This document shows positions 36,224 to 46,124 of a DNA stretch of 54,771 nucleotides, one piece after another. The translations under genes were made by a program, and so were the position numbers. Source of the stretch: Deltaproteobacteria bacterium (GTDB lineage: Bacteria; Desulfobacterota; Binatia; Binatales; Binataceae); NCBI GenBank assembly GCA_021799495.1, contig JAJZAI010000022.1:1-54771 (forward strand). Reading direction: 5' to 3'. The notes below the pieces were generated by a model that was given only the letters and a program-made list of their open reading frames with translations, did not search any database and was not told where the DNA came from. Numbering within the stretch: the stretch's first letter is position 1; each line of letters begins with the position of its first letter.

Positions 36224-37615
36224 ATGGCGCTGTGGAAACCCGACCCAAGTTTTTATCCCTCCCCGCGCATGGCGGCCGAGGGGCCGCGCGAAAAGCTCGC
36301 CTACGTCGTCGTCTTCAATCCCGATCCGTCCAACGGGCGCCACGACGCGCTCTGCGTCCTCGACACCGATCCGCAATCCTCCTCCTACGGCAAAATCGTC
36401 GGCCGCGCCGAGGCGCCTAACGTCGGCGATGAGTTGCATCACTTCGGATGGAACGCGTGCAGCGCCGCGCTCTGCCCCTATGCTCCCCATCCGCACGTCG
36501 AGCGCCGCTACCTGCTCGTGCCGGGCCTGCGCTCCTCGCGCATCTACATCTTCGACACCAAGCCCGATCCGCGCAGTCCCAAACTGATCAAAACGATCGA
36601 GGCCGCCGAAATCGCCGCGCGCTCCGGCTACAGCCGCCCGCACACCATCCACTGCGGCCCCGACGCGATTTATGTCAGCGCCCTCGGCGCTGCCGACGGC
36701 GGCGGACCGGGCGGAGTCTTCCTGCTCGATCACGACAGCTTCGACGTACTCGGCCGATGGGAGGTCGATCGCGGCCCACAATATCTCGGCTACGACTTCT
36801 GGTGGCATCTCGGCTACGACGTCGCGATCACCAGCGAGTGGGGCACGCCCAACATGGTCGAAAATGGCCCCGACCTCGATCTGCTCACCCAAGGCAAGTA
36901 CGGCCACCAACTTCATCTATGGGACCTGCGCCGCCGCCGCCATCTGAAGGCGTTCGACTTCGGCCCGGATCAACAGATCGTCCTTGAATTGCGCCCCGCG
37001 CACGATCCGACCAAAGCCTACGGCTTCGTCTGCGTGACCGTTTCGACCAAAGACCTCTCGTCGTCCATCTGGATGTGGTATCGCGAGGGCGGCGACTGGA
37101 ATATTCGCAAGGTGATCGAAATTCCCGCCGAGCCGGCCGATCCCGCCCTGCTGCCGCCCGCCATCAAGGGCTTCAAGGCCGTCCCGCCGCTGGTCACTGA
37201 AATCGCGCTCAGCACCGACGACCGTTATCTCTACGCCGCCTGCTTCGGCACCGGCGACCTGCGCCAGTACGACGTGACGGATCCCTTCAACCCGAAGTTC
37301 AAGGGCGCCGTCCGCCTCGGCGGCATCGTCTCGCATGCGCCGCATCCCAAAGCCGGCGCGCTCAACGGCGGGACCCAGATGCTTGAAATCAGCCGCGACG
37401 GCCGGCGCATCTACGTCACCAATTCGCTCTACGGCCCGTGGGACAAGGCGTTTTATCCCGAGGGCGTGCGCGGATGGATCACGCTGGTCAACGTTGGCGC
37501 CGACGGCGCGATGACGCTCGATCCGGATTTCTTCGCGCCCTTCAGCGGCGAACGGCCGCATCAGATGAGGCTCGAGGGCGGCGACTCTTCGTCCGATTCC
37601 TACTGCTATCCGTGA
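36224..37615 (+). CDS. Selenium-binding protein 56 / methanethiol oxidase homologue
   Basis: A 463-residue seven-bladed propeller of the SELENBP1/MtoX family. Copper-dependent members oxidise methanethiol to formaldehyde, hydrogen sulfide and hydrogen peroxide. Family landmarks: VVFNPDPSNGRHDAL, DELHHFGWNACSAALC (conserved Cys and His, near residues 70-85), RPHTIHCGPDAIYVSALG, LGYDFWWH and SEWGTP, and the C-terminal HQMRLEGGDSSSDSYCYP. No signal peptide is seen, unlike periplasmic bacterial MtoX. GAGGAG precedes ATG 36224 by 11 nt. The stop overlaps the next start as GTGA. Confidence 0.88.
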   Translation: MALWKPDPSFYPSPRMAAEGPREKLAYVVVFNPDPSNGRHDALCVLDTDPQSSSYGKIVGRAEAPNVGDELHHFGWNACSAALCPYAPHPHVERRYLLVPGLRSSRIYIFDTKPDPRSPKLIKTIEAAEIAARSGYSRPHTIHCGPDAIYVSALGAADGGGPGGVFLLDHDSFDVLGRWEVDRGPQYLGYDFWWHLGYDVAITSEWGTPNMVENGPDLDLLTQGKYGHQLHLWDLRRRRHLKAFDFGPDQQIVLELRPAHDPTKAYGFVCVTVSTKDLSSSIWMWYREGGDWNIRKVIEIPAEPADPALLPPAIKGFKAVPPLVTEIALSTDDRYLYAACFGTGDLRQYDVTDPFNPKFKGAVRLGGIVSHAPHPKAGALNGGTQMLEISRDGRRIYVTNSLYGPWDKAFYPEGVRGWITLVNVGADGAMTLDPDFFAPFSGERPHQMRLEGGDSSSDSYCYP

Positions 37616-38265
37616 ACGGCGCATGGCCGTGGCTCGCCGTCGCGATGCTCGGCGCCTACCACGGCGTCGATCCCTCGATGGGATGGCTGTTCGCGGTCGG
37701 CCTCGGCCTCCAGGATCGCAGCCGCAAACGCGTCTTCGCCGCGCTCGTCCCGATCGCGATCGGCCATCTGCTTTCGGTCGCCGCCGTGGTCGCGCTGATC
37801 GCCGCCGCGATGGGCCGCGGGTTCATCTGGCTCCGGCCGCTCGGCGCCTTGATCCTCATCGGCTTCGGCGTTTTTCGCCTGCGCCGCCCACTCGCGCATC
37901 CGCGCTGGGTCGCGATGCGGGTGGGCTTCGGCGACTTGACGCTGTGGTCGTTCCTGATGGCGACGGCGCACGGCGCGGGCCTGATGCTGTTTCCGATCCT
38001 GATGGCGATTCCGGCGGGCGGCGCGCCGCCGCCGATGCCGCATCATCACATGCCGATGCCGCCGCCGGCCGGCCATCTCGGCCCGCTCGCCGCGGCCGCC
38101 GTGATCGCGGTGCATACCTCCGCGATGCTGCTCGTGATGGGTTCGGTCGCGATCGCCGTCTATGAATGGATCGGGCTGAAGATTCTGCGCAGCGCGTGGA
38201 TCAATCTCGATACGATTTGGGCGGTCGCGCTGATCGCCGCCGGCCTCCTCTCCCTGGTCATCTAG
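37612..38265 (+). CDS. Membrane protein with His-rich loop, coupled to SBP56
   Basis: Starts at GTG 37612, overlapping the SBP56 stop by four bases, so it is translated with it. 217 residues with about six hydrophobic helices. GAYHGVDPSMGWLFAVGLGL and PIAIGHLLSV recall the H-x4-D and GH motifs of NicO/HupE-type metal carriers, and a loop carries PHHHMPMPPPAGH, a likely copper or nickel site. Close coupling to a copper-dependent enzyme family suggests metal delivery, but this is inference. No other assignment is convincing. Confidence 0.65.
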   Translation: MNGAWPWLAVAMLGAYHGVDPSMGWLFAVGLGLQDRSRKRVFAALVPIAIGHLLSVAAVVALIAAAMGRGFIWLRPLGALILIGFGVFRLRRPLAHPRWVAMRVGFGDLTLWSFLMATAHGAGLMLFPILMAIPAGGAPPPMPHHHMPMPPPAGHLGPLAAAAVIAVHTSAMLLVMGSVAIAVYEWIGLKILRSAWINLDTIWAVALIAAGLLSLVI

Positions 38266-38576
38266 TTGTCGGCCATTCAAACGGCAAGCAGTCACTCATG
38301 AAACAACCTTCGTTTTCAACGTCGTTCCGGAGGTAAGTATAATCTCGGATCGCCGATGGGCGAGCAGCTTCCAGATATAACGCTAAAATTTACTCACGAC
38401 CCGCAACAGGAAAACAATAAGCCAAAAAACCTTGAATTTATTGTATTTCCATACCGGTCAAGAGGATTGAAAAAATTTTATCAACAGGTCAGACGTGTGT
38501 AGTCAACAAATTATTCACGGGTGGGGTCTTTATGGTATTTGTATGAGAACGGAAGCAGGTTATTCTTAGAAAATAT
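38266..38576. other. AT-richer gap, no gene seen
   Basis: 311 bp of clearly lower GC than the genome average, following the membrane protein stop. No reading frame longer than about 60 codons makes sense. TTATCAACA (near 38478) and TTATTCACG (near 38510) resemble DnaA boxes but are too few to mean an origin. A weak promoter-like pair TTGTAT (38539-38544) and TATTCT (38561-38566), 16 bp apart, could start transcription of the structured RNA and tRNA just downstream. Confidence 0.5.
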
Positions 38577-38668
38577 GAGGTAGCAGCGGCGGTTACCGTC
38601 GGCCTTGGCTCAAATATCCGCGACCCAAGCCAAGGGGATCCGTTGGAAACGGACCGCCGCTGCTCCTC
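38577..38668 (+). ncRNA. Candidate structured RNA upstream of the tRNA
   Basis: A 92-nt unit closed by a long helix: GAGG (38577-38580) with CCTC (38665-38668), one bulged T, then a perfect 12-bp AGCAGCGGCGGT (38582-38593) / ACCGCCGCTGCT (38653-38664). Inside are a hairpin CCTTGGCT (38603-38610) / AGCCAAGG (38628-38635) with a 17-nt loop, and a short hairpin CCGTT (38640-38644) / AACGG (38648-38652) closing on GGA. It ends 6 nt before the tRNA. It does not fit a tRNA cloverleaf (no T-loop) or any riboswitch I recognise. It could be a processed leader, an sRNA or a mobile-element stem. Confidence 0.5.
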
Positions 38669-38674
38669 CCGTGC

Positions 38675-38765
38675 GAAGAGGTGGGTGAGTCTGGTTTAAA
38701 CCACCCGATTTCCATTCGGGCATGCCGCTGCCACGGCATCGAGGGTTCAAATCCCTCCCTCTTCG
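38675..38765 (+). tRNA. Class II tRNA, serine-type body with UCC (Gly) anticodon
   Basis: A full 91-nt cloverleaf can be drawn. Acceptor GAAGAGG/CCTCTTC (38675-38681, 38758-38764) with discriminator G73; T8 G9; D-stem GGT/ACC with G18G19 in the loop; anticodon stem CCCGA/TCGGG (38704-38708, 38716-38720) around TTTCCAT, giving anticodon TCC (38711-38713) with U33 and A37; variable arm ATGCCG/CGGCAT (38722-38727, 38734-38739); T-arm GAGGG-TTCAAAT-CCCTC (38741-38757). G15-C48 and U8-A14 are allowed. CCA is not encoded. The long variable arm, G73 and T-arm match tRNA-Ser, whereas UCC reads glycine GGA codons. Confidence 0.7.
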
Positions 38766-39109
38766 CTTAAAAACCAACTAGCACTTCGCTGACCTTTAAT
38801 CCACTCGGTGATCAGCTCAATATGAATATGGCAAAGCGCACGAAGTAACACAACGAAATCAAATGAAACGGACGTATGTTTAACGGTCAACAAGCCGCGC
38901 AGAGATTACTTCAAGGCCACGTAAAAAACGTATTTGCGTCACCGGTAACGATCCGGCTCGGAATCGGACCGTTTGGTTATCGGGCATGCCCGGGCTTGAC
39001 CCGGGCATCCATCCGCCGCCGTTTGGCGGCGAACTCTCGTCCGTTCTAGATTGACGCTCGCAAGCGGCGCGGATCGCCGCGCGCCCAGCCTGAAAAAATG
39101 GAGTCAGCG
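38766..39109. other. Gap between tRNA and cupin gene
   Basis: 344 bp with no gene I can support. It contains palindrome copy C (38986-39010) and, just after it, a GC-rich hairpin CGCCGCC/GGCGGCG near 39012-39030 without a T-run. The first 170 bp are AT-richer than the flanks and may be part of the same acquired segment as the tRNA. Confidence 0.5.
38986..39010. repeat. Interspersed palindrome, copy C
   Basis: ATGCCCGGG (38986-38994), CTTGA, CCCGGGCAT (39000-39008): identical stem and loop to copies A and D. The 5' flank lacks the GTC seen in the others (GGGC here), so the copy may be slightly truncated on that side. Confidence 0.85.
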
Positions 39110-39505
39110 ATGGAAATCAAGCGAATCGGTTCCCGCCCGTCCCGTAAAGGACCGGTTGAAAATTTCACCGGCAACGTCCGCATCGATCCCCTGTTCGATC
39201 CGCCCGCGCCCGCCCGCACTTACGGCGGATTGGTGACGTTCGAACCGGGCGCGCGCACGGCATGGCATACCCATCCCCTTGGCCAGACGCTGATCGTCAC
39301 CGCCGGATGCGGCTGGACGCAATGCTGGGGCGAGCCAAAAGAGGAAATCCGTCCCGGCGACGTCGTCTGGTGCCCGCCCAACAAAAAGCATTGGCACGGC
39401 GCCACCGCGACCACCGCGATGTCGCATATCGCGATCGTCGAAAAGCTCGACGGCAAAGCGGTCGACTGGATGGAAAAAGTCAGCGACGACCAATACCTCG
39501 GCTGA
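39110..39505 (+). CDS. Cupin-domain protein
   Basis: A 131-residue single-domain cupin. Motif 1 is [20 protein letters not shown], with two His and later Gln/Glu-type ligands; motif 2 is [17 protein letters not shown] with the last His. This matches small cupins annotated near carboxymuconolactone decarboxylases or as metal-dependent hydroxynitrile lyase-like proteins. The start is ATG 39110, 7 nt after GGAG; an ATG four codons earlier overlaps that site. Stands alone between palindrome copies C and D. Confidence 0.85.
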
Positions 39506-39535
39506 CGTTGGAGCCGTCCACGGTGTCCTTCATCC

Positions 39536-39565
39536 GTCATGCCCGGGCTTGACCCGGGCATCCAT
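39536..39565. repeat. Interspersed palindrome, copy D
   Basis: GTC, then ATGCCCGGG (39539-39547), CTTGA, CCCGGGCAT (39553-39561) and CCAT: identical to copy A over 30 bases. It is 35 bp before the chimeric gene at 39601. Confidence 0.87.
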
Positions 39566-39600
39566 TCCGACCCCATATCCAGCTATCATCATCCTTCGCG

Positions 39601-39972
39601 ATGGCGGAACTCGCCGGATGGGGCAGCTTCTATGTAATCGTCGGCACGGCCGCAGGCGCGCTGATCGGCCTGCAATTCGTCGTGATGACGCTGCTGGCCC
39701 AGCGCCCGCCCGAGCGCTTGAGCGAGGGCGGTCCCACCTTTCTGACCCCGACCATCGTTCATTTCAGTTGCACGCTGATGCTGTCGGCGATCCTGCAAGC
39801 GCCATGGCGATCGATCGCCGCTCCCGCGTTCTGCTGGTCGCTGATCGGCGTCGGCGGCGCCTTGGAGCACGCGCAGACCATCGCCAACCACGAGTCGCCC
39901 CGCACCACCAAGCTTTACGACCGCACCCGCGAAAACCTCTCCGCCGACGAGACCGCCCGCATACGGATATGA
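39601..39972 (+). pseudogene. In-frame chimera: membrane protein + tyrosine recombinase tail
   Basis: Residues 1-86 (FYVIVGTAAGALIGLQFVVM, then TIVHFSCTLMLSAILQAPWR) are the first half of a small membrane protein with three hydrophobic segments. From about residue 87 (near base 39859) the sequence switches to LEHAQTIANHESPRTTKLYD and RTRENLSADETARI, the last 37 residues of a phage-type tyrosine recombinase, including the H/E-x-x-R-T-T-x-L-Y-D region with the catalytic tyrosine. Neither parent is complete. The join is best explained by a deletion or aberrant integration that removed the recombinase body. It is probably non-functional. Confidence 0.75.
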
Positions 39973-40054
39973 CAACGCACTGATCAACGACGAGAGGAAT
40001 TATTTAGCACAAGCTGATTACCGCAGCTCGACGCCCGCCATAAAAACGGGTTAG

Positions 40055-40534
40055 GCCCAAGCTGAGCCGATCATTTTTATAGGCGACAGCGGCGCCGGTA
40101 AGACTCATCTCCTTTTCGGCCTGGCAGTCGCGGCCTGCCGGCAGAAGCGCCGCGTGCGTTTAGCCAGCGCCGCCGGGCTAATCAACGAGATGGTCGAGGC
40201 TAAGCATCAGTTGCAACTCGGTCGCGCACTCACGCGCTGGGCGCGGTATGACCTGATCGCGCTGGACGAAGTCGGCAACGTGCCGCTGGTCGAAATTGAC
40301 GCTGAGTTCCTCTTCCAGATCATCGCCGAACGGGCCGAGAAGGCCGCCGTCATCGTCACCACCAATCTGCCCTTCTCGGAATGGACCTCGGTGATTCCCA
40401 ACGCCCGGCTCTGCAAGGCGCTGATCGACCGCATCACCGACCGCGCAACGATCATCGAGACCGGCGCCGAATCCTATCGGTTCAGGCGCATACTGGAAAA
40501 ACGTAAGGGCAAAAACCCGGCGACCAAAACTTAA
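40055..40534 (+). pseudogene. istB: Truncated IS21-type IstB ATPase
   Basis: DnaC-like transposition helper ATPase. The open frame starts after a TAG at 40052-40054 and lacks the first 90 or so residues. Walker A is [17 protein letters not shown] (from base 40074 on), Walker [10 protein letters not shown], then [16 protein letters not shown] (sensor region) and [13 protein letters not shown] with C-terminal SYRFRRILE. IstA is not present nearby, so this is a relic of an IS21-family element. No start codon with a ribosome site is seen. The next 270 bp to 40804 look like decayed element end and hold no gene. Confidence 0.8.
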
Positions 40535-40804
40535 CCCGCGCCGCCGCCCGCGGGCGGCGGATAAAGGAAAAATCTCAACGAGAGCGCGAAACGGAGAGTG
40601 ATCAACTCAACGTCGAGGTGGAGCCAAAACTGAAGATCAAAACGGGGCCAGACCGTATTGTCAAAATCACCATATGCGCAATTTGCCAAAAGCATGTTTA
40701 AAAGAGTACTGTCCGCAGAGACCGAGCCCCATTCAAAAGGGGCCGCCGGAGCGTTAACGGATGGGCCGCGCGTTTGCTCATAGTCGCGGGGGAGGGATGG
40801 CCCT

Positions 40805-42814
40805 ATGTCCGATTCGAAATCGCCGAGCCTTCGGGTTCGGCTCTTTCCGTGCTTCGTAACCGCCGCGTTAGTCACCGCTCTCCTTCTGGTAGCGCCTCCA
40901 GCTGCCAGCGCCCAGCTATCAGATAATTTCACACAGGACGTCGGGCTCAACGGCTCGATCTGGACATCGTCGTCTAGCTTTCTCACCTCGATGGCCTCGG
41001 CAACGTCCAGTCCTCCCGGGTCATTTCTAACGCCATCACTCTGCTTTAGCGCCGCACCGGCATCGTCCTGCTCAACTCCCGCCGGTATGGCGATGTCCGG
41101 CGTCAACGGAACGCTTGAGTTTACAGGAATTCAGTCGGTTCAAGCGTTCTCGCCGCCGTTTACCTTTGAGACCACGGTCGAGGCAATCGAGGCTGACGGA
41201 AATCCATTTAACGTGTACCTCGTTAGCGGCGATCTGAGTCAATGGATTTCAATTGCCGGTAATGTCAATTCTGGAAACGGCCCTTATTACGGCATTGATG
41301 TGAATTGGACAAACAGCGGCCAGCTGTTCTCGTCGCTCGGCTCGACAGTGTACGCAACTCCAGGTACAGGCATCTTCTACAATATCACCGTCTCTATCGA
41401 TTCGAGCGGAAACGCATCGATGTCGATAAGCGCTGCCGGCACGACGCTCGGTTCCATTAGCAACCTCTCCGTCGGGAAGGGCCCTTTCTACGTGGTGCTT
41501 GCTCAGCGCGAGGGCTTGCCCTATACGGTCGGTCCAAACCTCGCCGTTTGGCAGTCAGTGCAGCTTTCGTCCACCGGATTGACTCAAGACTTCAGCTTCT
41601 CGGTGAGCCCGAGCAACACCGTGCAGCCTGTGGCTCTCACCGGCCAAATCCCTTTCACTATCACTGCTACGCCGCTGAACGGATTCAACGGGACGGTTGA
41701 CGTTCAGGAAACGAGCGTGGTTCCGCAGAACGTTTACCTTTACGGCCTACCTCACCCAACAATTCTAAGCGCAGGAAATCAGTATTCGCTGTCTGGAGAT
41801 CTTCAGGCCACTATAGGTGCTACAGTCAATCAGCCTCGATCAATAACGTTTTGCGGAACAGCCACGACTAGTTCTGGGATGTCCCTAGAACATTGCGCCG
41901 ATCTGACTTTCGAAATAGAGGAACTTAGTGCAGTAAAAAATCAGATTCAACTGGACGGCCAGACGGTTTCTGATTTACTACGAAAGCGATGCCCGGCCCC
42001 GAGCATGACCAGCACCGCACTGGAGCTCGCGTTGCCTCCCGTCCAAGTCGGTGGTTCGCTTGCCGCAGAGTGCTTTTCAATTCAGCAGAACTTCTTCGTT
42101 TGGACTCCTGGCCAAGGTAACTATCCTTCTGAGCCGTCGTATTGGGCACAAAACGTAATAGAGGTTAACCGAGATCCTATTACAACAGACTGGCTGGTGC
42201 GGCCGGCCTTCAGCGTGTTTGACGTGAATTCCGACGGCACCATTGGTAGCCTCGCCGACTGCAATAATCCGCCTTGTATCGTGAGGGCGTTCCTGCCAGG
42301 AGGCTGGACTTCGATACCTTCGACGGCGACCTCGCTCACCCTGGAATCGGATATTGAGCAGATGGGCTCCGGTTATACAATTTCTTTCCTCACCTCTGTG
42401 GGAGGCGAGCAGCTAGGCTCACCGCTTACTACAGATGTTGACCTCGGTTCCACATCAGCGCCGTTCATCGATGCAGGCGTCGTCCGGGCTCCTATTACTC
42501 CTGCTTATCAGCCCGAACTTGCCCTGGTAGGTTTCGCCCTCAAGCATTCGGTAACATTTTTAAGCCCAACTTCTGGGACTCTCAGTTCATCGACCGAATT
42601 CGCAAGAGAAGATTCGTTCGTGTCTTCGGCGCAATCGCCGATGCCAGCGCCAGCGACTCCTAGTTTGAATTGCGCGTCAACCGCTGAGACATCGTACGGA
42701 CTACGCTGGAGTGAGGATGGCTCGACGTTCCAAGCCTCTTCGACTCAAGGTCTTGTTGCTGCCGAGGGCGTCAAGTTTGCCCCCGGTGCTGTGATGCCAT
42801 GTCCGAGTCAGTAA
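40805..42814 (+). CDS. Large secreted protein of foreign composition
   Basis: 669 residues with a Sec signal peptide (basic start, hydrophobic residues 16-32, cleavage likely after PAASA). Residues 38-260 look like a concanavalin/LamG-type beta sandwich (ending VGPNLAVWQSVQLSSTG). Residues 262-370 resemble an Ig-like domain (FSFSVSPSNTVQP); the rest is Ser/Thr-rich beta sequence with paired cysteines. No catalytic motif is seen. Codon use is near-neutral at third positions and far less GC-rich than neighbours. GGAGGG precedes the ATG by 8 nt. It lies between IS21 and IS3 relics, so it was probably brought in by mobile DNA. Possible surface adhesin or glycan binder. Confidence 0.7.
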   Translation: MSDSKSPSLRVRLFPCFVTAALVTALLLVAPPAASAQLSDNFTQDVGLNGSIWTSSSSFLTSMASATSSPPGSFLTPSLCFSAAPASSCSTPAGMAMSGVNGTLEFTGIQSVQAFSPPFTFETTVEAIEADGNPFNVYLVSGDLSQWISIAGNVNSGNGPYYGIDVNWTNSGQLFSSLGSTVYATPGTGIFYNITVSIDSSGNASMSISAAGTTLGSISNLSVGKGPFYVVLAQREGLPYTVGPNLAVWQSVQLSSTGLTQDFSFSVSPSNTVQPVALTGQIPFTITATPLNGFNGTVDVQETSVVPQNVYLYGLPHPTILSAGNQYSLSGDLQATIGATVNQPRSITFCGTATTSSGMSLEHCADLTFEIEELSAVKNQIQLDGQTVSDLLRKRCPAPSMTSTALELALPPVQVGGSLAAECFSIQQNFFVWTPGQGNYPSEPSYWAQNVIEVNRDPITTDWLVRPAFSVFDVNSDGTIGSLADCNNPPCIVRAFLPGGWTSIPSTATSLTLESDIEQMGSGYTISFLTSVGGEQLGSPLTTDVDLGSTSAPFIDAGVVRAPITPAYQPELALVGFALKHSVTFLSPTSGTLSSSTEFAREDSFVSSAQSPMPAPATPSLNCASTAETSYGLRWSEDGSTFQASSTQGLVAAEGVKFAPGAVMPCPSQ

Positions 42815-42994
42815 GAATATCGGCACGCGATCTTGCCAATCCTTCCAGTGGCTGGCGTCTCTGATCAATCGAAGTCAAAGCGTACCAGACCACCACGTCA
42901 TGGGGTGGGGGCGAAGATGGTGGTGTCTGTCAATTGGTGGAAAAGCAGTTAGCACCAGGATTGGGCGAGAGAGCGATTGATTAATCAGTTGGAC

Positions 42995-43797
42995 CTAACC
43001 CGTTTCGGTAGACGGTGTTGGGCTGCGGTAATGAGCCTGTGCTGAATGACTCCTTTCGTAGTTGATCGGCGAGAGATAGTCGAGGGCGGAGTGGCGGCGA
43101 TGGGGGTTGTACCAGCCCTCGAAGAAATCGAAGACCGCGATGCGGGCCTCGCCCCGGGTCTTGAAGCGCCGCCGGCTGAGCAATTCGCATTCCAGGGTGG
43201 CGAAGAAACTCTCGCACATGGCGTTGTCGAAGCAGTCGCCGACCGAACCCATCGAGGGTCGCACTCCGGCCTGCTCGCAGCGCTTGCCGAAGGCGAGCGA
43301 AGTGTATTGGCCGCCCTGGTCGGAATGATGAATCACGCCGGCCGGGCGTCGCTGCCCGAGCGCCATGTCGAGCGCCTTTGGTGCCAGCTCGGTGCGCAGA
43401 TGGGTCTCCATCGCCCAGCCGACAATCCTGCAGCTGAACGCGTCGAGCACCACCGCCAGATAGAGAAAGCCGGCCCAGGTCGGGATGCAGGTGATGTCGG
43501 CGACCCACAGCCGATTGGGCGCGGCGGCCGTGAGTCGCGCTCGACCAGATCCAGCGCCGGCCGCGCCCGGGGGGCGCGCTGGGTGGTGATTACCCAACCG
43601 CGCCGGCTTACTCCGCGTGGTTGTGCCGCGCGCATCAGCCGGGCCACGCGCTTGCATCCCACCTTAATGCCCTGCTCCTTAAGTTCCGCGCGGACGCGCG
43701 GCGCGCCGAGGGCGGGCTGCGGATGGCGCCGAAGCGGCGCGAAAAACCGCCAATCGGCGCGAACGGGCACGATCGGGCGCCATTTGACCGCGCCCAA
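42995..43797 (-). pseudogene. IS3-family transposase OrfB, frameshifted
   Basis: The DDE integrase core is complete in the downstream frame: D in NRLWVADITCIPT, D in VIHHSDQGGQYTS and E in NAMCESFFATLE, then GWYNPHRRHSALDYLSP. The upstream part (LGAPRVRAELKEQGIKVG, CKRVARLMRAAQPRGV) is in another frame; the two would join if one A were restored near 43533 on the plus strand. The N-terminal helix-turn-helix part and orfA are missing. Sequence near 42995-43020 resembles the typical IS3 end. An inactive copy. Confidence 0.85.
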
Positions 43798-43970
43798 ATC
43801 GTGGTTTTCGGCGATCGTGTAAGCGTGCGCGCCTGTTCAGGCGTGCGATAGAATGGCAAATCGGCGAATAGTCATGTTTGGACTATATTTCTCGAAGCTC
43901 GTATCATGGCAAATGCCACAACACGGGCGTGGCGCAATCACCTGGAGAAGCTCTGCAAAGGGTTCATCCC

Positions 43971-44034
43971 GTCATTCTGAGCGCAGCGAAGAATCCCGGG
44001 ATTCTTCGCTCCGCTAGGCTCCGTTCAGAATGAC
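43971..44034. repeat. 64-bp palindromic repeat with perfect 26-bp core
   Basis: Outer arms GTCATTCTGA (43971-43980) and TCAGAATGAC (44025-44034) are inverted copies; the centre 43985-44010 is a perfect 26-bp palindrome built on AGCGAAGAATCCC. It resembles the miniature inverted units found dispersed in many bacterial genomes. It lies between the IS3 relic and the ICMT-like gene and may act as a transcription barrier. Confidence 0.8.
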
Positions 44035-44057
44035 AATTTGACTTGCGCGGAGCTTCA

Positions 44058-44765
44058 CTAGAGCAGGCCGGGAATCAAGCGATAGCGGACTTTGCTGGCG
44101 TAGGCGCGATATTCCGGATCGGCCATTAGCAATTCTTCTTCCTGGTCAATCCGCCACATCATGAACGGCAGGCTGACGATATTGACCATGACGTTGAAGG
44201 CGCTGGGATAGCAAATCGCGTAACCGACCGACAGCAGCAGCCATCCCGCATAGATCGGATGGCGCATCAGGCGGAACGGACCGCCGCTGACGATACCGCG
44301 ATTAGCCGGCAAAAGGCCGAAGCTGCGCCCAAGAAAGACACGCGCGACTTGCGTAAACAGAACTCCTGCGATTTCGATTCCGATTCCCGCGGTTTGCGCA
44401 ATACCCGTGGAAGGCGCGGTCAGTTGGACCATCGCGGGTATGATCAGCATCCCGCCCGTCGCGGACAGACTGCGCAGATTGACCATCGTGGCCTTCGGCA
44501 TCGTGCGGACCAGCGAAAAAAAGCCCATCAACAATGCGCCGGCGCTCCAGATGACATTAGCCGCGCTGAAGTTGTGATGGCCTCCGAGGGTGAAAGCGCT
44601 CGAAAAAAAACATCCGGCAAGCAGCAGATTTCCCGCCGCGTTAACGAGGCCTTTGCGGTTAAATCCCTTGAATTCGCCGGAATCTTCCGGCGCTTCGACG
44701 GCGGCGGAGAAGCTCCGGGAATCCGACAGCAATCCTTCGACCGAGTTGCCCATGCGGCGTCGCAA
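44058..44765 (-). CDS. ICMT/NnrU-type membrane methyltransferase
   Basis: A 235-residue membrane protein with five to six hydrophobic segments. The C-terminal cofactor-binding signature of isoprenylcysteine carboxyl methyltransferase-like enzymes is seen: GGPFRLMRHPIYAGWLLL (near residue 162), then EEELLMADPEYRAYASKV and RYRLIPGLL. Bacterial members methylate diverse lipids or remain unassigned. ATG 44753 (MGNS) is an alternative start. About 100 bp downstream of the MFS gene on the same strand. Confidence 0.8.
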   Translation of the reverse strand: MRRRMGNSVEGLLSDSRSFSAAVEAPEDSGEFKGFNRKGLVNAAGNLLLAGCFFSSAFTLGGHHNFSAANVIWSAGALLMGFFSLVRTMPKATMVNLRSLSATGGMLIIPAMVQLTAPSTGIAQTAGIGIEIAGVLFTQVARVFLGRSFGLLPANRGIVSGGPFRLMRHPIYAGWLLLSVGYAICYPSAFNVMVNIVSLPFMMWRIDQEEELLMADPEYRAYASKVRYRLIPGLL

Positions 44766-44865
44766 GACCTTTCGCAGCGAAACTACACGAAATCAGGCGA
44801 TAAGAATAGAAAATAATTCAAAAGGCAAAAATTGGCGCGGTAACGGCAGTTAATTCGCGTTGCCT

Positions 44866-46124
44866 TCATGCGTCGGTTGGCGCGGCGGATATCGCATCTG
44901 CGGCGATTGTGCACGAATTAAGCGGAATAAGCGCCGCGTATCCAATCAAGCTGCATCCGCCGGCCATCGCCGCGACCCATAGATAACTGCCGGTGCGATC
45001 GATCACGAATCCGGCGAGCGGAGGACCGGCGAGCGCGCTGATCGAGGAGCTGGTGTAGAGCGCGCCGAGAATCGCGCCAAGGCCGCGCACGCCAAAGATT
45101 TCGGCGACCACGGCGGGCGACAAGGCGATCATCCCGCCGTATGACGCGCCCATCACGAGCGCGAATACCACCAGCGTTGCGTAGGAGTGCGCGCCGATCC
45201 AGAAGGCATAGCTGAGCCCCAATAACAGCATCATAGCCTTATAAAGGTTGATCGTGCTGGCGCGGCCGGCGAAAGCTCCCAGCCCCAGCCGGCCGGTGAC
45301 GCTGGCGGCCCCGATGATTCCGACAAGGGCGGCGGCGGCAACCTGGTCGGCGCCACAGTTATGCGCGAAATCAGGCAAATAGACGAATGGAATGTAAATC
45401 GAAACCGATGAGAGCACCGATGACACGTAAAGCAGAAGAAAATCGCGTGTGCCCATTGCCGCCGTTAATTGAATCGGCGCCGCCGCGGTTGTCTCGTGGA
45501 GCGGAGGCGCCGCGACGATCCAGGCGCATCCGAGCAGCGCCAACGACGACGCCACGCCCATCATCAGATACGCCTCGCGCCATCCGAACCGCTGAATCAG
45601 GGCGGCGGCGAGTGGGACGACCACCAGCGTGCCGCATCCGACGCCCGAGACCGCGACTCCCAAAGCCGCCGTGCGCCGTTTCAGAAACCATCCGCTGACC
45701 ACGGCGAGCGCGGGCACATACCAGCACGCCACGCCGACGCCCACGCCGAGTCCATAGGCGACGCATCCCCACCACAGGCGGCTCGCCGAGGCGGTGAAGC
45801 AAAGTCCCGCGCCGATCGCGATTGCGCCCACGGCCATCACGCGGCGCGGGCCGAAACGATCGCTGAGATGTCCCGCGGCGAGCCCAAGCAGGTTATAAAT
45901 GGCCGCGGTGAGCGAAAAAACGATCGAGGTGTGAGCGCGGGAGGCGCCAAATTCCGCCGCCATCGGCTTGAAAAAACGCCAAAGCTATAGACCACACCGA
46001 AGATCGTGAAACAGGCGAAAAACGCCGCGAACGCCATCAGCCACGCGCGCGGCGAGTCGAGCGCGGGTTGACTCAAGCGGGGCGAAACAGCGTTTGCGTG
46101 ATTGGCGGATTCGTCGACGGACAT
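44866..46124 (-). pseudogene. MFS transporter with single-base frameshift
   Basis: A 12-helix major facilitator. The first helix (RAWLMAFAAFFACFTIFGVV) is encoded in the frame starting at ATG 46124. The remainder, from MAAEFGASRAHTS to the end, is in a second frame whose loop 2-3 has GHLSDRFGPRRVMAVG (family A motif). The two frames join exactly if the six-T run (plus-strand A's at 45971-45976) had one more base, giving GVFFKPMAAEF. It may be a true mutation, a slippage site or a base-calling error. A substrate such as a mono- or dicarboxylate is plausible but not shown. Confidence 0.8.

Follow-up and report, generated by a model that had tools for sequence, protein, structure and literature searches.

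The window, the whole 54,771-nucleotide stretch of Binatia DNA that we analyzed, carries at positions 38675-38765 a tRNA gene in which a serine-type class II body is combined with a glycine anticodon, UCC. Judging from sequence, we consider it somewhat probable that this gene encodes a surplus tRNA of serine descent carried on an insert, that its family in Binatia retains the body as the anticodon changes, and that it functions, in the manner of allo-tRNAs, as the missense tRNA of a mobile element. The best reading of the family as a whole is that of a putatively mobile, anticodon-varying serine-type "allo-tRNA-like" family with ordinary 7/5 (acceptor/T) geometry. The features on which the analysis draws are as follows.

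36224..37615, + strand: gene for SBP56 (selenium-binding protein), used as a synteny anchor (Pfam PF05694, E 5.1e-179)
38266..38980, no strand: AT-rich insert of about 715 bp around the tRNA; approximate boundaries taken from alignment to congeners
38356..38502, + strand: 48-codon ORF within the insert, from an ORF call; may not be a gene
38577..38668, + strand: hairpin directly upstream of the tRNA (fold of -49.4 kcal/mol)
38675..38765, + strand: class II serine-type tRNA with anticodon UCC (ARAGORN, Rfam, stem layout, tree)
38711..38713, + strand: anticodon TCC in the loop TTTCCAT, with A37 (ARAGORN and layout)
38722..38739, + strand: variable arm of 6 bp with a 6-nt loop and one unpaired base on either side (layout)
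39098..39505, + strand: cupin ORF, the conserved right flank (Pfam PF07883)

Structure and lineage of the tRNA

ARAGORN called the gene as tRNA-Gly(tcc) at 38675-38766 on the + strand, and Rfam model RF00005 matched 38675-38765 with 55.5 bits (E 2.7e-9), passing the curated gathering score of 29. The acceptor, D, anticodon, variable and T stems comprise 7, 3, 5, 6 and 5 bp, and all 26 stem pairs are standard with zero mismatches; the acceptor/T geometry is 7/5, the discriminator is G73, and the fold has a z-score of -3.11 (200 shuffles). The first-pass annotation had described a complete serine-type class II body with G73, a UCC anticodon and 7/5 geometry. The body is borne out by the pairing and by the tree described below, the anticodon by ARAGORN together with the layout, and the geometry by the layout. 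The anticodon reads GGA and perhaps also GGG.

The gene does not encode CCA, and CTTAAA comes after G73. By eye, CCA is likewise absent from at least six of the remaining 42 tRNA genes in the genome, so its absence does not disqualify the gene, and we rejected the idea that it marks a dead one. GC precedes G1 at positions -2/-1, making a 9-bp acceptor possible in the fold; this was rejected as a distinguishing mark (the 9/x geometry of allo-tRNAs) because three of the genome's four class II tRNA-Ser genes show the same GC. A scan of 38250-39150 gave no sigma-70-type promoter, which is weak evidence since the organism's promoters are unknown.

Compared with the identity features of candidate isotypes, the window tRNA has G1-C72, and its second pair is A2-U71 rather than the G2-C71 of tRNA-Ser. 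The anticodon is UCC rather than one of serine (NGA or GCU), and the 18-nt variable arm sets the body apart from that of the class I tRNA-Gly(UCC), which has 76 nt with CCA. Selenocysteine tRNAs have a long D stem and usually a UCA anticodon; the window tRNA has a 3-bp D stem, UCC and a 7/5 arrangement, as against the 13-bp acceptor branch given for tRNA-Sec in an excerpted source (PMC7609411). An excerpt of another source describes G2-C71 as absolutely invariant in the tRNA-Ser of E. coli and of most bacteria (PMC9976931), a rule from which the window copy departs.

Scanning viral sequences by pattern yielded six separate loci (L081, L082, L084, L085, L168 and L172), of which only L085 held a tRNA according to ARAGORN, a tRNA-Ser(GCT); two further viral pattern scans found nothing. 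We built a tree from 38 class II rows over about 90 columns, masking the anticodon in the window tRNA and the three homologues described below (together, the four odd tRNAs). Leu rows were separate (100/99), and Tyr fell outside a branch holding all Ser and odd rows, the support of this branch being just 80/83. Inside the Ser side, the four odd tRNAs and L085 formed one group (94/97). The four odd rows alone formed a clade in 7% of bootstrap trees, with L085 falling among them, and constraining them to one clade was not rejected (p-AU 0.536); the placement of L085 is unsure because of its long branch. L085 and the window tRNA have an identical 23-base stretch around the D arm. The tree thus shows the window tRNA grouping with tRNA-Ser, apart from Leu and Tyr, and points to serine descent.

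The insert and its host genome

In two congeners (G006 and G003), the alignment with the window runs to 38263 and resumes at 38985, with 345 and 208 other bases, including a short repeat, in between. In a third (G001), it stops at 38267 and resumes at 44907, with 38268 to 44906 missing, and in two more (G002 and G004) the left flank aligns and the right flank has no alignment near the tRNA. The insert starts at the stop codon of an ORF ending at 38265, and its GC content is 47.6% (42.9% without hairpin and tRNA) versus 64.0% for the window. These data uphold the earlier proposal of an accessory-DNA setting, in the form of an AT-rich insert of about 715 bp that is missing from sister species. 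Because the sister species that were checked lack the insert at the syntenic position, the window copy has no orthologue against which to test it. Zero matches to 38264-38672 were found in the other 147 Binatia genomes, and searches with 38560-38820 gave no plasmid match; neither the tRNA nor the insert had a phage match. The 48-codon ORF had no relative in PHROG or phages by tblastn, and no integron attC site was seen in the insert when its motifs were looked for by eye.

On the right, 38985-39506 aligns to G006 at 88% and to G003 at 91%. On the left, SBP56 has a match in 31 of 41 family genomes, the window's own counted; it was set aside as a functional partner because relatives that lack the tRNA also conserve it at this position. 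A REP-like palindromic repeat, ATGCCCGGGCTTGACCCGGGCAT, occurs at 38979-39012 and 39532-39565 (94% identical over 34 bases); the corresponding gap of G006 and G003 holds similar repeats, and one of the window copies marks the insert's right edge. A second stretch not aligning with these two congeners, at about 39507-43689, holds an IstB piece, an rve integrase ORF and a 669-aa ORF with low codon bias and no Pfam match.

The hairpin gave z-scores of -4.39, -4.16 and -3.64 in three runs and ranks second lowest among 43 tRNA upstream regions, with that of tRNA-Gln(ttg) nearly equal (-4.13); the lowest belongs to a tRNA-Tyr, which has another tRNA upstream. That it is a copy of a repeated element is unsupported, its only genome match at E up to 1 being itself, and it makes a weak family hallmark, the upstream z-scores of the other three odd tRNAs being -1.95, -2.07 and -1.70.

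The window's genome (G000, class Binatia; 89 contigs totalling 3.43 Mb, with 44 tRNA matches to Rfam) contains class I tRNA-Gly with TCC, GCC and CCC and class II tRNA-Ser with GCT, TGA, CGA and GGA. The first-pass annotation had asked for a check on whether the usual tRNA-Ser genes and a class I tRNA-Gly(UCC) occur in the genome, and both do. One SerRS scored above the curated cut-off, and a second, partial match (24.1 bits) fell below it. With an ordinary tRNA-Gly(UCC), a normal Ser set and one SerRS over the cut-off in the genome, the window tRNA is therefore surplus. Of the 1066 Gly codons counted across 31 selected ORFs of the window, 177 are GGA; since this codon is not rare, efficient insertion of Ser would be costly to the cell, and competition from the normal tRNA-Gly(UCC) leads us to expect a partial effect.

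Two further tRNA genes of this genome are unusual. L031:86-184 (G000:C42:19035-19133, minus strand) is a second odd class II tRNA, with A73, a 30-nt variable region and a Leu-like body, including a D arm that we take to be Leu-type. All of its pairs are standard in the Rfam alignment, and its loop, CCTGGAA, combines C33 with a proline-type UGG; ARAGORN missed it, and it had no plasmid match. Five Leu anticodons are also present in the genome on ordinary tRNAs, and beside L031:86-184 lies what is, by its motif as read by eye, presumably the end of a transposase-like ORF. L028:115-189 (G000:C58:5564-5638, minus strand) is a class I gene that ARAGORN labels Ser(cga) and whose anticodon arm is irregular; Rfam gives the loop CTCGAAC and one non-standard stem pair, and an alternative drawn by eye has a 6-nt loop with a C.U mismatch. 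It is either a decayed or an unusual tRNA.

Homologues in Binatia and their settings

Three homologues were found in Binatia, all with non-serine anticodons: UAG in Candidatus Binatus soli UBA7539 (G020, class Binatia), GCA in G110 and GAU in G109, the latter two being two species of one genus. Their Rfam scores are 57.3, 49.4 and 46.2 bits (cut-off 29). A search of 148 genomes of the class, with a model built from the first two sequences, scored the window's genome at 113.6 bits and G020 at 104.8, with the next at or below 87.2 among the matches listed; anticodons were inspected at 30 of its loci, where the G109 copy was missed, and this copy was found by a block search. A pattern search of the phylum, on a sample of 395 genomes, found two, in the window's genome and in G020; the sample excluded G110 and G109, neither of which the pattern would fit, and the pattern used to scan a collection of genome contigs was likewise too stringent to admit the GCA and GAU tRNAs. 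With strict patterns and a sample of the phylum the family is undercounted, and its members number at least four.

All four odd tRNAs have 7/5 geometry with a 3-bp D stem, as well as G73, G1-C72, G30-C40 and a long variable arm; G2-C71 is found in three, the window copy with A2-U71 being the fourth. U33 is present in all four, and the sole case with G36 (UAG) carries G37. The UCC and GCA copies have no stem mismatches, the UAG copy has three and the GAU copy two (both C.A), and the UAG tRNA folds no better than its shuffles (z 0.38). In the four-row alignment, 99 of 104 stem cells are paired (95.2%; shuffle mean 84.1, with 0 of 500 as high), and 11 of the 26 pairs show changes on both sides (shuffle mean 5.8, 0 of 500 as high; slid controls at most 2). 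Further pair types gave no excess over shuffles (313 of 500 as high). These compensatory stem changes in four related rows are suggestive, not proof, that the body has been kept. The first-pass interpretation is thus partly borne out: the three homologues, with other wrong anticodons and compensatory changes, strengthen it, and the mismatches in two of the three speak against a simple version of it.

G110 and G109 share a 243-bp block, 84% identical, in which the anticodon is GCA in one genome and GAU in the other. Relative to the GCA tRNA, the GAU tRNA has an A-U to G-C exchange in the T stem and one A-U to G-U change. Identity within the block is 79/91 for the tRNA, 65/72 upstream and 59/80 downstream, so conservation of the tRNA does not clearly exceed that of its flanks. 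A search of two further genomes of the genus (G107 and G108) with the G110 stretch gave no hit at E 1e-5.

By sequence, all four odd tRNAs lie in DNA that looks accessory. The UAG tRNA occupies a separate insert between an ArsA-like gene and methylmalonyl-CoA mutase. Five of six G020 congeners (G031, G060, G061, G057 and G059) have both flanks with at most about 400 bases between them, and thus lack the insert; the sixth (G058) misses the left flank at the locus. GTGCTCTAATTTG and CAAATTAGGGCAC, which by eye form a near-perfect inverted repeat, delimit the second part of the UAG insert, and CCGTCGG is seen by eye at three joints of the insert. The insert also holds a transposase-like fragment whose DNA relatives turn up repeatedly across other genomes of Binatia; over 41 residues it shares 58.5% identity with a fragment abutting the G109 block. 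This IS1-like G109 fragment matches four plasmid records, one of them annotated as an IS1 family transposase, and neither fragment was convincingly matched in Pfam or NCBIfam. Next to the GAU block is an Endonuclease I gene, and a gene for a terminase large subunit is found at a distance of about 0.9 kb (phrog_2, E 1.7e-25; Pfam Terminase_6N below cut-off). In G110, an HTH_17 gene upstream, overlapping the end of the block, matches the excisionase phrog_66.

Neither the UAG insert nor the GCA tRNA had a plasmid match, and the GCA tRNA had one weak phage match, in Microbacterium phage Big4. The matching Big4 segment (L088:1501-1566) is unannotated and lies in a tRNA cluster; it shares about 79% identity with the 3' 70% of the GCA tRNA and by eye has no discernible 5' half. 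A SocA/Panacea antitoxin-like gene (L083:1152-1748) lies about 0.7 kb from the GCA tRNA, and a DUF5615/PIN-like gene (L047:11772-12140) about 3 kb from the UAG tRNA.

Competing explanations and known systems

The favoured reading, a missense tRNA of a mobile element, implies the following course of events. The insert would be mobile, and CCA, absent from the gene, would be added to the transcript post-transcriptionally. The host SerRS would then serylate the tRNA, reading the variable arm and G73 and ignoring the anticodon, and EF-Tu would deliver the serylated tRNA to compete with the normal tRNA-Gly(UCC), placing Ser at a fraction of GGA codons. In favour of this reading we count the intact cloverleaf, the surplus status of the gene, the tree, the shared features and two-sided pair changes of the four odd tRNAs, and the inserts and the excisionase-like or phage genes at their loci. 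Against it we count the A2-U71 pair, the negative promoter scan, the mismatches in two homologues, the block in which the tRNA does not clearly stand out from its flanks, the commonness of GGA, the lack of an excess of further pair types, and the 7% bootstrap clade on a short alignment. A bolder version, which we regard as unlikely, holds that Binatota phages and small mobile elements trade a serine-tRNA cassette whose anticodon has been diversified by selection, each carrier partly rewriting a different sense codon (GGA, CUA, UGC or AUC) to Ser, as a mobile missense device that acts in translation.

The four genes could instead be relics of tRNA-Ser genes imported by phages or elements and not needed, so that anticodons drift and stems decay. 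The mismatches in the UAG and GAU copies, the shuffle-like fold of the former, the sporadic presence of the family, the transposase-like fragments in the UAG insert and beside the GAU block, and the anticodon difference inside one homologous block whose tRNA does not clearly exceed its flanks in conservation are all consistent with such decay; the mismatch-free UCC and GCA copies, the two-sided changes in 11 of 26 pairs, the universal U33 and the presence of G37 next to G36 in the UAG tRNA argue against it, and we consider it somewhat unlikely. Distinctly less likely, in our judgement, is a phage or element tRNA that is not used in decoding and serves either as a decoy, or a substrate proof against nucleases, to counter defences or toxins that cut tRNAs, or as a non-ribosomal Ser donor, with its anticodon left free. 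The terminase gene near the GAU copy, the excisionase-like gene by the GCA copy, the group member on a viral contig and the toxin-antitoxin-type genes at the GCA and UAG loci fit this idea, as does a proposal, in the excerpted text, that phage tRNAs evade anticodon nucleases through anticodon-loop changes (PMC10264068), but nothing links the toxin-antitoxin-type genes to the tRNAs, and none occurs among the 20 ORFs scanned at the window locus. The UCC anticodon is all that suggests an ordinary tRNA-Gly or a misassembled anticodon arm. Either is highly improbable, given that the class II body does not resemble the genome's own class I Gly(UCC), that the anticodon stem is perfect and that separate homologues carry other odd anticodons.

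If charged as the missense reading predicts, the window tRNA would be a natural sense-to-sense missense tRNA of ordinary tRNA shape. ARAGORN labels the four odd tRNAs by anticodon, as tRNA-Gly, tRNA-Leu, tRNA-Cys and tRNA-Ile. The family also provides a natural, directly testable set of matched bodies with different anticodons, one pair of them within a single homologous block. In addition, it would tie wrong-anticodon tRNAs to mobile elements, a link hypothesised earlier, in the excerpted text, for the decayed allo-tRNA-UAU group (PMC7609411). Within the open-licence papers searched, neither a serine-type family that combines 7/5 geometry with diverse anticodons nor such a tRNA in Binatota came up.

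Several known systems resemble the Binatia tRNAs in part. Phage-encoded tRNAs are carried by phages and prophages (PMC10264068, PMC10865867) and show anticodon-loop changes (PMC10264068), whereas neither of the two abstracts mentions a body and an anticodon of different amino acids. The nev-tRNA-Gly(CCC) of nematodes, as excerpted, also combines a V-arm with a glycine anticodon but is eukaryotic and leucine-misacylated in vitro, with no mistranslation detected in C. elegans cells (PMC4300185). The tRNA-ProX of Streptomyces and Kitasatospora is likewise a hybrid tRNA of soil bacteria with mismatched anticodons; the source, in excerpt, describes it as proline type, with A33 and A34 and its own ProRSx (PMC11415595), whereas the Binatia tRNAs are of serine type with U33, and the window's genome has one SerRS over the cut-off. 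The yeast CUG-Ser tRNAs are tRNA-Ser with a non-serine anticodon, enabled by an anticodon-independent SerRS; according to the same excerpt they reflect a clade-wide codon reassignment (PMC11415595), unlike a surplus gene in an insert beside a normal tRNA.

The allo-tRNAs come closest in design: an excerpted account describes them as 8/4 and 9/3 class II tRNAs of Clostridia, Proteobacteria and Acidobacteria, with anticodons covering 35 of 64 codons, Ser insertion in E. coli for two, and an Edaphobacter allo-tRNA-UAU pseudogene with stem disruptions that overlaps a transposon-related ORF (PMC7609411). Both groups combine a serine-type class II body with diverse, mostly non-serine anticodons (here UCC, UAG, GCA and GAU). 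The Binatia tRNAs differ in having, in all four cases, 7/5 geometry and a 3-bp D stem in place of a 12-bp acceptor branch (8/4 or 9/3), in their Binatota lineage, and in that two of the four lie by excisionase-like or phage genes. If charged, the Binatia tRNA would therefore work like an allo-tRNA while lacking the geometry that defines that family.
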